Under the pieces are notes generated by a model. That model was not told the DNA's origin. It saw nothing but the letters and a program-made list of their open reading frames with translations, and searched no databases. Source: Gammaproteobacteria bacterium (lineage in GTDB: Bacteria; Pseudomonadota; Gammaproteobacteria; Burkholderiales; Thiobacillaceae). Taken from it: a stretch of 64,000 nucleotides of DNA. Position numbers and translations under genes: made by a program. Location of the stretch: positions 310,001 to 374,000 of the forward strand of contig JAHJNN010000008.1 in NCBI GenBank assembly GCA_018820765.1, given 5' to 3'. This document shows, one piece after another, positions 26,583 through 54,421 of this stretch. Position 1 is the first letter of the stretch; the number at the start of each line of letters is the position of its first letter.

Positions 26583-27059
26583 TTAGCCGGCGCTCAACAC
26601 TTCAACGAGCGTTTCCGGCAAAAGCGTCGTGGCCTGGGCAAACCCGCCGACGAAGCGGATCGAGTCCGGCCAAATCGCGAACAGCGAGAAGTCGGCAAAG
26701 CTGAACAAGTCCGCGCTCTGGGGAAACCGGGCCAGATAGGCGGCCTTCGCCTCGGCATGGCCTTCGGTTCCATTGGCGTATTGCACAGCCCGGCCCTGTA
26801 CCGTGATCCGGGCCAATCCCTGGACAGGCACGTCGGGCGCCGGCGGCGCAACGACCAGCAGGCTCACCTGTGGGCTCGACAGCATGTCCTTGGTATGCGC
26901 CGCGAGCTGGCTGACATGGATGACGAAACCCGAGCCGCCGGGAAGCAGGGCGAAGGGCACCATGGACACGTACGGCTGGCCCTGGTGTAGCGTTCCAAGG
27001 GCGGCCACTTGTTGGGTTTGCAGCAGCTCGTGGAGTGTCTGGGCGAAGGCAGGATTCAT
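26583..27059 (-). CDS. HugZ/pyridoxamine oxidase-like protein
   Basis: A 158-residue protein of the split-barrel flavin/heme-binding family (HugZ, pyridoxamine 5'-phosphate oxidase-like). The N-terminal helix ETLHELLQTQQ-like region, the core strand ALGTLHQGQPYVSMVPFAL and the C-terminal FVGGFAQATTL are typical. Members bind heme or FMN and some degrade heme. The gene is convergent with the Rieske gene. A damaged partial copy lies at 16643. Confidence 0.85.
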   Translation of the reverse strand: MNPAFAQTLHELLQTQQVAALGTLHQGQPYVSMVPFALLPGGSGFVIHVSQLAAHTKDMLSSPQVSLLVVAPPAPDVPVQGLARITVQGRAVQYANGTEGHAEAKAAYLARFPQSADLFSFADFSLFAIWPDSIRFVGGFAQATTLLPETLVEVLSAG

Positions 27060-27109
27060 CTGTGGGGCGTAGGGTTCATCGGCGCTCAGTTTGCTGCGTA
27101 GGTCCGGTT

Positions 27110-27143
27110 GTCTGCTGTTAACAGACCTTCAATGTTAAAGGTC
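27110..27143. other. Overlapping hairpins downstream of the RelA-like gene
   Basis: GTCTG...CAGAC (27110-27126) around the palindrome CTGTTAACAG, overlapping GACCTT...AAGGTC (27124-27143). It lies beyond the end of the leftward cassette genes and may stop transcription. It is not a clear attC. Confidence 0.45.
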
Positions 27144-27185
27144 GGCATCAACGCCTAGTACGAGCAACTGTTTTCAGAGCGCCAC

Positions 27186-28235
27186 TCAACGATTTACCCC
27201 CTTGGTAGCGCTCTTCGGTTTTGCCAGTTTCTCGCATCCGGCTTCGAGCAAGCGGATGAAATCCCGAGCATCAGAAAAGTAGTTTCGGAATGCGAGGCGG
27301 ACCTCATCGCTTGTATCCGCCCGGACCAGAACGATATCTCGATCAGGCAATTCGCGCTCAAGCTCAAATAAGGCGCGAAGAGCATCTGGCGCGTCACGGA
27401 ACGTGCGGACTTCAAGATCGCCAGTACTTCCAAAGATCAAGATCGCGTTGCGTTTGGCAGAAACGGCTCTATTTGCGGCGTTCAAACCACGAAGCGTTTT
27501 GAGTAGGCCCAACTCATTGTCAAGGGCTAGGAACTGCGCAACCAGGTCTCGATCCTGAATGTCAGGTATGGGCCCTGTCATTCCTTCATGCGCTCTCGCG
27601 AGGATTTCGCTTGCAAGTGCCATAGCATGCTCATATCGCTTATCACCCTTTTGGAACTTAGGCTGACTTTCCGTGATAAAGCCGATGACTTCGACGGCGG
27701 TGGCCCATGCATGCTGGACCAAGGTGCGGTATTGAATTTCGACGTATAGCCCCGCAAGCTTCTTCCCTACCTCGGAGTTGACGTCATATTCGTATACATC
27801 GTGAATGCCTCGATAGCCCGTATCTTTGGGCTGCTTGATGTAATCGTACTTGTCCAGGTCGTTTCTGCGCTTATGCTTGAAGTGAGCACGGAGAAACTCA
27901 GCGCGGAACGAGTTGAGTTCCTTTGCATTCTTGAAGATCAGGCGGCAACCTGCGACGTCATCCATCCGAGCAAGCTGCATCCCCGGCAATCGGAGCAGCT
28001 TGTCGAAGATTGTGCGCTTTCGCTTATGACGTTGAGCAACCGTGATATTCGTGTCGCGCGTGCGGTTGCGGAGAATAGCTTGAAAGGTATTAAGTACCCC
28101 ACGATGCGCTGCGCGCCATTCATCAACAACGTGTAAGTCGTCCGACGATGCGTTTCCGTTTCGAATATTATCCCCAGCCCGATTCACGCGGGACTTAGAG
28201 CCGCCTGGAAATGTTGGTGCAGAAGACTGGGCCAT
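27186..28235 (-). CDS. RelA/SpoT-domain nucleotide synthetase, stand-alone
   Basis: A 349-residue protein with a (p)ppGpp synthetase-type domain in the first 200 residues and no HD hydrolase domain. Substrate-site motifs look intact: basic RHKRKRTIFDKL, MDDVAGCRLIF, the G-loop YIKQPKDTGYRGIH and VEIQYRTLVQHAWA. The C-terminal 130 residues are not a known TGS/ACT module. Proteins of this shape include alarmone synthetases and toxic synthetases acting in phage defence, but the product cannot be predicted. Base composition is lower in GC than the neighbours, and attC-like sites separate it from the genes upstream, suggesting a mobile gene cassette. Confidence 0.85.
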   Translation of the reverse strand: MAQSSAPTFPGGSKSRVNRAGDNIRNGNASSDDLHVVDEWRAAHRGVLNTFQAILRNRTRDTNITVAQRHKRKRTIFDKLLRLPGMQLARMDDVAGCRLIFKNAKELNSFRAEFLRAHFKHKRRNDLDKYDYIKQPKDTGYRGIHDVYEYDVNSEVGKKLAGLYVEIQYRTLVQHAWATAVEVIGFITESQPKFQKGDKRYEHAMALASEILARAHEGMTGPIPDIQDRDLVAQFLALDNELGLLKTLRGLNAANRAVSAKRNAILIFGSTGDLEVRTFRDAPDALRALFELERELPDRDIVLVRADTSDEVRLAFRNYFSDARDFIRLLEAGCEKLAKPKSATKGVNR

Positions 28236-28251
28236 GGTTGGTATCTATGAG

Positions 28252-28321
28252 GCCGAACGTTCAAGGTCAGGCGCGCGGCGCAGCTTTATCGCGCAGCGTC
28301 CCCTTCACCGCAGGGTTAGGC
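28252..28321 (-). other. attC-like recombination site 1
   Basis: Read leftward, the site opens with GCCTAAC and closes with GTTCGGC, with imperfectly paired inner boxes (TGAAGG and CCTTGA) and a GC-rich hairpin between, which is the architecture of an integron attC. The stop codon of the upstream gene (TAA at 28316-28318) lies inside the opening box, as is common in cassettes. Confidence 0.75.
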
Positions 28322-28828
28322 CCCGCCTTCGCTAGCCAGCGGCTTGAGTATGTCGGTAGCTTCGTCTTCAAACTGCACCTCATTAATTGATTCGTGCATG
28401 AAATTCTGAATAAGTGGGATGTCTTGCAGGCGGTAGTCTGTGCGCGCGAACAACATGTCGTAATTTGAGATGCAGCGATCAATGAGCTCTCGCGCCTCGA
28501 ACTTGGGATTCATGAGAACGATGTGATCCTTCGTGCCGGCATGCTTCGAGTGGTTGTAGGCTCGATTCAATAGGTCACCAATGTTCTTCTCGGTGGTCAT
28601 TCCTGGCTTCCCAGCTACCTGCTGGTGGAGCCCATTTGCAATCTTGGTTATGGCCCCACGCATTTGTGACCATGAAGGTTCCATCTTGTGCTTGAGTACA
28701 TAGCCTGCGAGTAATTGTTCGGAGGCTCCGGCCAAGACAATTGCGCTGTGATAGCGATTTGCGAAGTACGCCTTGAGCGCGTCTTCAAGTTGTTCAACGG
28801 CCATATCTAGTTTCTGGACTTCTTGCAT
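28316..28828 (-). CDS. HEPN-like protein in a gene cassette
   Basis: A 170-residue, mostly helical protein I do not recognise by name. Residues 20-45 (YFANRYHSAIVLAGASEQL) resemble the first helices of HEPN proteins, and Arg89-X6-His96 (RAYNHSKH) fits the R-X4-6-H motif of HEPN ribonucleases. Many such proteins are toxins or defence effectors. It ends within an attC-like site and begins after another, so it forms one cassette. No partner antitoxin is evident. HEPN assignment is tentative. Confidence 0.65.
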   Translation of the reverse strand: MQEVQKLDMAVEQLEDALKAYFANRYHSAIVLAGASEQLLAGYVLKHKMEPSWSQMRGAITKIANGLHQQVAGKPGMTTEKNIGDLLNRAYNHSKHAGTKDHIVLMNPKFEARELIDRCISNYDMLFARTDYRLQDIPLIQNFMHESINEVQFEDEATDILKPLASEGGA

Positions 28829-28856
28829 AGGAGGTGCTCGGTCGGAAACCTGCGAG

Positions 28857-28918
28857 GCCTAACAGTTATTCAAGAGACCCATGGGCCCGGACATTTAATA
28901 TAAAGATTCCGGTTGAGC
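28857..28918 (-). other. attC-like recombination site 2
   Basis: Bounded by GCCTAAC (28857-28863) and GTTGAGC (28912-28918), 62 bases, with a TTCAAG inner box and the palindromic core CCCATGGGCC. It follows the stop of the leftward membrane-protein gene by about 35 bases. Its core recurs at 29508. Confidence 0.6.
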
Positions 28919-28952
28919 GCCGGGCTGGACGGCAACTTTGACGTGGCTCTTC

Positions 28953-29468
28953 TCACGAGAACAAGACTGTGAGTAGTTCAACGAAGAGTATCAGCGGAAC
29001 AGCGAACAAGGCAGCGACAACGAAGACCACGACACCGATCACTTCGAACCAACTGGGCCAGCCGGAAATCTTGAGAACGTCTGCTCGAACAGAATCGATC
29101 AGGGTTCCAAGTTGAGTCTCCGCTTTGCTAGGTGCGACGTTCGGATCGTTTTCGAGCATATGTACTGTCGCAGTAAAGTCATTGACTCTCCTTGAAAGAG
29201 CAGCGCGTCTGAATTGTGCGGCTAGGACAGCGATCAAAAAGAGAAAGAGTGACAGACACAGGAGCGAAACAATGATTGCGAAAGCAAAGGATAGTGAATG
29301 TTCGCCTTGGAGTTGACGGTATCCAGCAAGAGCCGTGATGCTAGCGATTACAAGGGTAGTAAACCATCGTACGTTTTCGGCAATCTCAGCTAGATTATGC
29401 GAAGCCGTTGAATGAAGATCATCGCTGGATTCGAGGAAATACTCTTTGCGTCCAACGGTCAGAGACAT
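28953..29468 (-). CDS. Predicted membrane protein in a gene cassette
   Basis: A 171-residue protein with three hydrophobic stretches (about residues 35-50, 60-85 and 141-168) and a soluble middle segment of about 55 residues. The start has a good ribosome site (AAAGGAGA). I do not recognise the family; short membrane proteins of this layout are common in defence and toxin cassettes as effectors. It is flanked by attC-like sequences on both sides and has lower GC than the core genes. Confidence 0.65.
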   Translation of the reverse strand: MSLTVGRKEYFLESSDDLHSTASHNLAEIAENVRWFTTLVIASITALAGYRQLQGEHSLSFAFAIIVSLLCLSLFLFLIAVLAAQFRRAALSRRVNDFTATVHMLENDPNVAPSKAETQLGTLIDSVRADVLKISGWPSWFEVIGVVVFVVAALFAVPLILFVELLTVLFS

Positions 29469-29507
29469 ATGGCCTCTCCTTTCGATTCGGGGGTAGATGC
29501 GTCCAAC

Positions 29508-29591
29508 AGCAATTCAAACGTCCCATGGGCCCAGACATTTATGACGACGAATATCTTGGAATAATTTTTTATCTTATTTTTTCATGTTCGG
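29508..29591 (-). other. attC-like sequence 3 (degenerate)
   Basis: GTCCAAC at about 29507 and GTTCGGT near 29585 bound a stretch whose first half (CAATTCAAAC, CCCATGGGCCCAGACATTTA) matches attC-like site 2. It may be the site of a lost upstream cassette. The right boundary is unsure. Confidence 0.4.
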
Positions 29592-29761
29592 TTCGGTTAT
29601 CACTATGAAAAAGGTGACCGGGGCAGACGAATTATGCTCCCGTTTGGCTCCCTCTCAACTATGACCATGAAACCCGGGATGTAGATTGTTAGAGGTCCGT
29701 TTCCGCTGCGGAACGGAAGTACGGCGAGATGATAGTAAACGGTTGTTTAGAGTCTAAATTG

Positions 29762-29790
29762 ATGAACCGGTTTTGTTATAAGCGGTTCAT
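29762..29790 (-). terminator. Hairpin after the 109-residue gene, end of the nifV operon
   Basis: ATGAACCG (29762-29769) pairs perfectly with CGGTTCAT (29783-29790), three bases beyond the stop codon of the last leftward gene. No T-run follows, so it may act as a processing or weak termination signal. The region 29592-29761 holds no gene I can support. Confidence 0.4.
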
Positions 29791-29793
29791 TCC

Positions 29794-30123
29794 TCAATCT
29801 CTGTGTGCCTTGCCGGCGCGCTCCGTCCACCATTCGGAAATGGTGTCGATCAGCCGGATGGTGCCAGGCAGGCGCGTGTAGGCAGCCTGCTGGAGCGCAT
29901 CTGCGGGTTCGAGGGTACGCCACCAGACGATGAGCTGTTTGATCAGCGCGCGGGCGGGGATGTGCTCGGGGGCGAGACCGGGGAAGCCCTGCAGGCCGAA
30001 GCTCGCTTCGACGTCCTTCAGGCAATCGAAGATGTAATCGCTATCCGGCCCGAAATCGATCGCCCGGTTCGGCGCGCGCCGGACCATGCGCTGTTCGCTG
30101 AGTTCGGGGATGTAGGGCTTCAT
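29794..30123 (-). CDS. Hypothetical protein, last gene of the nifV operon
   Basis: A 109-residue soluble protein, not recognised. It is rich in Trp and Arg in the second half (IVWWRTLEPADALQQ, ISEWWTERAGK) with a helical pattern and no cysteines beyond one. It follows the ankyrin gene by 40 bases in the same direction and is the last member of the putative NifA-controlled operon. No function is proposed. Confidence 0.65.
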   Translation of the reverse strand: MKPYIPELSEQRMVRRAPNRAIDFGPDSDYIFDCLKDVEASFGLQGFPGLAPEHIPARALIKQLIVWWRTLEPADALQQAAYTRLPGTIRLIDTISEWWTERAGKAHRD

Positions 30124-53900: not shown

Positions 53901-54421
53901 TGGCGGCCATTCCCGGATTTTTGCCCCACGTGATTTTCATGGACCTGGCCATGCCCGGCATGGATGGCTGGGAGACCTTGCGCCGACTCCGCACGGGCGG
54001 GATGACCGATGCCGAGATCGCCATCATTTCGGCCAACGCCTTCGAGAAGGGCGCGGACAACGATGCCGGCATCGCCGGCGAAGACTTCATCACCAAGCCC
54101 TTCCGCGTCGACGAACTGCTGGACTGGCTCGGCAAGCGCCTCAACCTGGAATGGATCCGGGCGGACATCCCGCGCCAGTCCGCCCCGCCGCCCGGCCTCC
54201 CCACCCAGCCCATCGTGCCGCCCGACGCGGAGCGGGTGAGCAAGCTGCGGGAGATGATCGACCTGGGCTACATGCGCGGCATCCTGAAAAAGCTCGACGA
54301 GATCGAGCAGCTGGACCCGGTTCATGCCGAGTTCGTCCAGGTGATGCGGGTGCTGGCCCGGCGATTCCAGTTCGAGGCGATGAAGGAAATCCTGCGAAAG
54401 AGCACCGATGCCGGCCATTGA
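50987..54421 (+). CDS. Transporter-type hybrid sensor histidine kinase (NCS1-like domain, HK, REC)
   Basis: A protein of 1144 residues fusing a membrane transporter to a kinase. Residues about 45-500 form a 12-helix NCS1-type (purine/cytosine/allantoin permease-like) domain. About 508-546 is a cysteine-rich stretch (CCICGK, ARCPAY, CSLCCSLDARCHDLC) that looks like a metal-binding module. Two more membrane helices (about 580-660) lead to HisKA (SHELRTPLNSILGY, His near 700), HATPase (NILGNAVKF, GTGLGLTIARM) and a receiver domain (ILVVDNEAVDRE, phospho-Asp in FMDLAMPGMDGW, KPF). It should sense a nitrogenous solute through the transporter part and pass phosphate to the next gene's product. The start is uncertain; ATG 50975 is also open. 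Confidence 0.9.
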   Translation: MSNRRMEQTVRDDPPKARQRVVKVRRDYNTWVANETLEDYALRFTPRSYRKWSESRVANTAFGAAAFLVLEAVGATLLVNYGFLNAALAILATGLIIFMMGLPVSIYAARYGLDMDLLTRGAGFGYLGSTLTSLIYASFTFIFFALEAAIMAYALELAFGIPPAWGYLICALVVIPLVTHGVTVISRLQTITQPIWLVMLVLPYAFLLTKEPGAFAGIVGYAGNGTAGFDIHLFGAAMAVGLALITQMGEQVDYLRFMPEHNRANHRRWWASVLVGGPGWVVPGVVKMLGGALLAWLAVSHLVPMERAVDPNQMYLIAYSYVFPDYGWAVAATVLFVVISQLKINVTNAYAGSLAWSNFFARLTHSHPGRVVWVVFNTLIALMLMEMDVFQALGRVLGLYSNVAVAWMMVVVADLVINKPLGLSPPGIEFRRAYLYDINPVGVGAMGIASGLSVAAYVGLFGDAVQPFAIFIALGAALVCSPLIAWLTGGRYYIARPAEPVPAAAAGSTHSCCICGKAYEGEDMARCPAYQDHICSLCCSLDARCHDLCKPQARLGEQWAALLERCLPARARPYLDAGLGHYLLLMAGVVPFLILLVGLLYYQEVLALNDAATALLPALQQSYQRAFAALLLVSGVVAWWLVLTHKSRQVAQEESNRQTQLLMQEIDSHRRTDELLQHAKQVAEQANQAKSRYITSISHELRTPLNSILGYAQILDQDQTIPPNRRQAINVIRRSGDHLLSLIEGTLDIARIESGKLTLNVRPLDFADFIQQLVGMFEQQARQKGLDFHYLPEGPLPAMVRADEKRLRQILLNILGNAVKFTVSGSVTLRLRHQREMAFFSIEDTGPGITPDEVGNIFEPFSRGSAAHVGATGGTGLGLTIARMLTDLMGGELSVTGRPGEGSRFDVRLFLPRLHAEQLVKEHPLAQRIGYVGMRRRILVVDNEAVDRELLVNILTPLGFEVAQVSSGQQCLAAIPGFLPHVIFMDLAMPGMDGWETLRRLRTGGMTDAEIAIISANAFEKGADNDAGIAGEDFITKPFRVDELLDWLGKRLNLEWIRADIPRQSAPPPGLPTQPIVPPDAERVSKLREMIDLGYMRGILKKLDEIEQLDPVHAEFVQVMRVLARRFQFEAMKEILRKSTDAGH

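Follow-up and report, generated by a model that had tools for sequence, protein, structure and literature searches.

CapRel-SJ46, a fused toxSAS protein borne by phage SJ46 (PDB 7ztb, PMC9712102), unites a synthetase, a pseudo-zinc-finger and a C-terminal helix in one chain. Antiphage cassettes have been described from both chromosomal and mobile integrons (Darracq 2025 and Kieffer 2025, as told in passages of PMC12409362), and clusters of attC sites without an integrase (CALIN) are recognized by IntegronFinder 2, by default from two attC sites upwards (passages of PMC9024848). Here we examined a 64,000-nucleotide stretch of a Thiobacillaceae genome (assembly GCA_018820765.1, contig JAHJNN010000008.1, positions 310,001 to 374,000), referred to below as the window, in which an initial annotation had pointed out a trio of leftward genes of lower GC (guanine plus cytosine) content. 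Both features were borne out: the minus strand carries open reading frames (ORFs) at 28953-29468, 28316-28828 and 27186-28235, and the three 1-kb bins from 27001 to 30000 have a GC content of 0.51-0.53, the window minimum (0.57-0.70 in the remaining bins). The locus is probably an attI platform with an integron cassette array but no integrase next to it, holding three independent genes, the third of which encodes a CapRel-like phage alarm. First would come a leader carrying an attI and a promoter-like site, followed by a membrane-protein gene closed by a partial attI (delta-attI), then by a HEPN-like gene closed by a true attC, and finally by the CapRel-like gene, its own attC lost; the whole array would be expressed from the leader promoter.

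Three attC-like sites had been proposed between and before these genes. They were scored with a covariance model trained on 12 attC sites, none from the window; eleven came from the same genus, among them one from the genome's own integron on contig C17, and one came from a Gemmatimonadota bin. With both strands of the window searched, site 1 (28252-28321, minus strand) folded as an attC and matched the model over its full length with 45.4 bits (E 3.4e-9), and the sole further match up to E 10 was partial, at 54155 (17 bits). Site 1 is an attC, and the cassette nature suspected from the sequence is thereby upheld. As had been noticed, the TAA with which the middle gene ends (28318-28316) does fall within the R'' box GCCTAAC of this site (28321-28315), and that box is the exact complement of the R' box GTTAGGC (28863-28857) opening the second-gene cassette. 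The R' box of site 1, GTTCGGC (28258-28252), in turn opens the third-gene cassette. At the far end of the third gene (27060-27185, minus strand), where its attC would be expected, the model found no match and the corresponding R'' box, GCCGAAC, was not seen by eye; this end of the array appears eroded. Rfam gave no match between 26500 and 30500 up to E 5.

Only this one of the three proposed sites both folds and scores as an attC. With one attC in the window, a CALIN in the strict sense was ruled out: the locus resembles one in having cassettes without an adjacent intI, but differs in its single attC and in keeping an attI with a promoter-like site. Across the whole genome the model identified at least seven attC sites with an E of 0.001 or below, including one that had been used for training; this figure is a minimum, as 150 of 5501 first-look candidates were scored. 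The hairpin scan, with its strict filter, misses sites. Further scattered matches in this genome (G000), at C6:301301, C3:85174, C11:51811 and C10:82668, are possibly lone cassettes.

The other two proposed sites, 28857-28918 and the one near 29508, gave no match to the attC model up to E 10, and both match the 3' end of an attI leader. A pattern built from the strings preceding them and a string from a genome of the same genus (G399), with up to two mismatches allowed, occurred 26 times in 16 of 56 genus genomes searched, the two window copies included; the reversed pattern did not occur in these 56 genomes. Eighteen copies align over at least 130 bp with the leader of one locus, L083. Six others, shortened leaders elsewhere in the genus (L078, L081, L084, L086, L093 and L070), and window positions 28859-28900 keep just the last 37-56 bp. 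The 26th copy is window 29501-29660 (minus strand), in which blastn matched two blocks, 29644-29604 (90%) and 29542-29505 (82%), to the L083 leader in the same order and 18 bp closer together. This indicates that a diverged full leader, ending in the attI core GTTGGAC (29507-29501), precedes the first gene.

The identity of the leader follows from its position elsewhere. A second type of integrase, about 50% identical to the enzyme encoded on C17, was found at six loci (389-396 bits), and all six have the leader immediately upstream of intI in divergent orientation, the position of an attI and cassette promoter. Leader coverage by blastn was at least 98 bp at three of these loci (one cut by a contig end) and comprised the last 44-46 bp at the other three, where alignment showed the remainder of the leader with an insertion. 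A further locus, found through the leader, has a broken second-type integrase at the same place (G409). Judged by this homology, two of the three proposed sites are attI-derived and not attC, and the first gene is preceded by an attI with a putative cassette promoter. A promoter-like TTGAGA-N16-CATAAT (10/12 match) is present in the leader at 29658-29631; between 27000 and 29800 there were four such sites against 2.2 in shuffled sequence, which is no excess, so support for the site comes from its position.

Behind the first gene, positions 28859-28900 are 95% identical to the last 42 bp of the leader (blastn) and contain the core GTTAGGC at 28863-28857. A partial attI (28857-28900, minus strand) thus stands where an attC would be expected, as in cassettes of the delta-attI type. 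It is preceded by GTCCAGC...GCTCAACCGGA, perhaps the left half of a lost attC, as read by eye. With the full leader before it and the delta-attI behind, the first gene has the attI-ORF-delta-attI layout known, according to passages of PMC12901181, from class 1 and class 2 integrons. The window cassette shares that layout with those described there, but carries the attI of another integrase type, is chromosomal and retains 42 bp of attI.

The third gene (27186-28235, minus strand, 349 aa) had been described as a RelA/SpoT synthetase without a hydrolase, which was confirmed: the hydrolase domain is absent and the active-site residues, invariant on alignment, are all kept. It had also been put forward as part of an undescribed kind of system, a suggestion at odds with what was found. 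The protein matches the PADLOC family PDC-S33 over residues 10-336 (E 1.2e-101), a candidate single-gene defence family; the literature searched contained no paper naming PDC-S33 as a whole word. Fold and profile comparisons alike align it with CapRel along almost the whole chain, residues 11-338 being aligned at high Z. The match extends through the pseudo-zinc-finger domain and C-terminal helix that follow the synthetase, where the predicted local distance difference test (pLDDT) score is low. CapRel-SJ46 has identical active-site residues and its hinge motif at the same place, although identity in structural alignments is 25-28% and the one gene is borne by a phage, the other by an integron cassette. 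The neutralization motif also differs, YXXY in CapRel-SJ46 and FXXY here (FRNY). In a 32-row alignment, the first residue of the motif is F in 28, Y in three and H in one, and the second Y is kept in 32/32. That alignment drew on the 33 loci described below, less L036 and L043 (stop codons) and L024 and L037 (contig end), plus L064 and L067 from the same genus. The two relatives with stop codons come from Xanthomonas bromi and a betaproteobacterial bin. The sensing domain showed no sign of faster evolution.

That the protein is a stress enzyme, producing (p)ppGpp or (p)ppApp as a small alarmone synthetase, and not a tRNA-directed phage sensor, appears improbable. Matches to such enzymes end near residue 219, while CapRel alone aligns through residues 11-338 at high Z and its hinge is carried in the C-terminal half; the genome, moreover, already has two long ORFs of RelA/SpoT type. 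On homology and predicted fold, the third gene probably encodes a single-chain toxin-antitoxin of the CapRel type. By analogy with CapRel-SJ46, its synthetase domain would be restrained by its own C-terminal pseudo-zinc-finger domain until a phage protein bound that domain and released the enzyme. Once freed, the enzyme would transfer pyrophosphate to the 3' ends of tRNAs and halt translation, and the infected cell would then yield no phage.

It could be argued that the array is a dead remnant, neither expressed nor mobile and useless to its host, given the diverged leader, the missing neighbouring intI, the lost terminal attC and the delta-attI. We regard this as unlikely, since all three ORFs are open, the leader keeps its promoter-like site and the active-site residues of the third protein are intact.

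Relatives of the third gene were found at 33 loci in genome contigs, 30 of which had enough flanking sequence to look for cassette boundaries. In seven of them (L013, L017, L019, L020, L023, L025 and L027), a GTTRRRY-like box ahead of the gene is paired with an exact complement on the far side, where mononucleotide shuffling of these flanks gives an expectation of 0.17, and at another locus (L012) an attC scored by the model stands directly behind the gene (33.9 bits). These eight cassette-borne relatives come from Pseudomonadota, Acidobacteriota, Gemmatimonadota, Nitrospirota and Thermodesulfobacteriota; metagenome bins account for six of them. No cassette boundary was seen at the remaining relatives. 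A tree of 32 proteins required seven changes of phylum label against a minimum of six and does not by itself show transfer; it pairs L017 with L019, both cassettes, from a Gemmatimonadota bin and a gammaproteobacterial bin. Within the genus, 5/56 genomes have a relative, and besides the window copy only that of G399 is close (75%), lying directly behind an attI leader. As a fused toxin-antitoxin needs no partner gene, the protein would suit a one-gene cassette, the format it shares with the antiphage integron cassettes described in passages of PMC12409362.

An argument from defence islands was dropped. At 17/33 loci, 107 ORFs lay no more than 3.5 kb from the RelA/SpoT gene and 80 lay more than 6 kb away; both sets gave a few PADLOC matches among the matches listed, the comparison covering the first 25 families of each set. 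Two other relatives were observed: a shortened ORF beside annotated tape measure pieces in an Aeromonas plasmid record, and a distant protein (27%) with an integron-integrase fragment close by (L067/L130, G391:C285).

The second gene (28316-28828, minus strand) encodes a 170-aa protein whose predicted structure is all-helical (six sequences, mean pLDDT 75). Structural matches are headed by HEPN entries, with AbiV first and a best Foldseek E of 0.22, which makes the HEPN-like fold initially assigned to it plausible. The R-X6-H motif cited in its support is present, but as a family motif it was ruled out. Read by eye, it occurs in two of nine aligned members (the window protein and L143), R-X4-H occurs in two more (L046 and L052), and some R-X4-6-H is thus found in four of nine, at two different places; H96 is invariant in 9/9. 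The protein differs accordingly from AbiV, a HEPN RNase (PDB 9bj7), to which it is 11% identical. Distant relatives occur in eight of the 368 other class genomes and in five plasmid records; viral contigs yielded none. Four of the eight have an attC-model match at the gene end (L050, 64.2 bits; L047, 33.6 bits; and two weaker cases, L051 and L052, at 22-23 bits with an E near 0.02), indicating that this gene too belongs in part to a cassette family. A relative on a Caballeronia plasmid (L142, 3001-3444) immediately follows a gene annotated as a site-specific integrase, and two genes beyond it an 'abortive infection family protein' is encoded.

The first gene (28953-29468, minus strand), for a membrane protein of 171 aa, is an orphan as far as the searches reached: no relative was found in the 368 other class genomes or on plasmids, and against family libraries the protein matched SLATT at E 0.64 only.

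The three genes had been offered as the best candidate for a joint defence or stress module, and they are indeed adjacent, on one strand, and each resembles a possible effector. A single co-evolved module is nevertheless very improbable. Recombination sites separate all three genes; RelA/SpoT and HEPN relatives are found as separate cassettes; and for the membrane protein no relative turned up in the 368 other class genomes or on plasmids. Homologues do not recur together, relatives of the HEPN-like and membrane proteins being present at none of the 33 RelA/SpoT loci (3-21 kb, E 0.01), nor at the G399 copy in the same genus.

The absence of an integrase from the window, also part of the initial annotation, held up in a tblastn search with the genome's own enzyme at E 1e-3. 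That enzyme, the one integrase of the genome above the family cut-off, lies outside the window at C17:186538-187479 (496 bits). It is found near a contig end in a complete small integron (L010) of intI, attI region, one cassette (156-aa ORF) and attC. An integrase within the fetched 1.5 kb was seen at one of the 26 leader copies (G409), some flanks being cut by contig ends (154 bp at L078). Nineteen copies are followed on the same strand within 1.5 kb by an attC-model match at E 0.01 or better; for two of the 19 (L088 and L091) all such matches are training sites. Leader copies occur in 16 genomes, of which only G389 has an intact second-type integrase, one of the six, while G409 has a broken one; 11/16 have an integrase of at least 452 bits, judged from such scores to be of the C17 type, two of them with an internal stop. 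The window's genome has another leader of this kind (L114, G000:C18:94506-94535 and 95205-95274), which is followed by a cassette and an attC; the flank fetched there gave no integrase match.

Tentatively, the genus may possess 'solo attI' platforms, in which chromosomally scattered leader copies of one integrase type, with no integrase beside them, still take up and shed cassettes through an integrase encoded elsewhere in the genome; the window array would be one such satellite platform, now carrying a CapRel-type alarm. The reason for considering this is a neighbourhood seen, wholly or in part, in other genomes, with the leader and other cargo or with no leader. The 109-aa ORF upstream of the window array (29794-30123) has a relative in 6/55 other genus genomes. 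In G414, a leader copy that the pattern had missed (74% over 160 bp) comes 155 bp after this relative, with other ORFs behind it and no integrase match at the locus. In G408, further along the same neighbourhood, there are attC sites and other cassettes together with the leader. Part of this neighbourhood, with no leader match, is also present in G393 and G399; a weak attC match occurs there in G393 (18.5 bits). No clean empty site was obtained; in G408, PPOX is found on the opposite side of the array. Mobilization of CALIN in trans is an accepted idea, according to passages of PMC12444791.

Several points weigh against such platforms. The attC model found no site in G414 up to E 0.1; by eye, GCCTAACTGGGAGTTCAACTCGGACG...GGTTAACCAGGCGTTAGGT there resembles a long attC. 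The leaders may be relics of integrases lost separately, draft assemblies hide neighbours, and action of a C17-type enzyme on this attI is only supposed.

IntegronFinder does not detect attI sites outside class 1, according to passages of PMC9024848, and such platforms would therefore be easily overlooked. The six shortened leaders elsewhere in the genus suggest that delta-attI cassettes may also be frequent in integrons of other classes than 1 and 2. An attI standing apart from its integrase would let one enzyme serve several expression platforms in a genome. The CapRel-type protein, for its part, moves through several phyla as a self-contained one-gene integron cassette.
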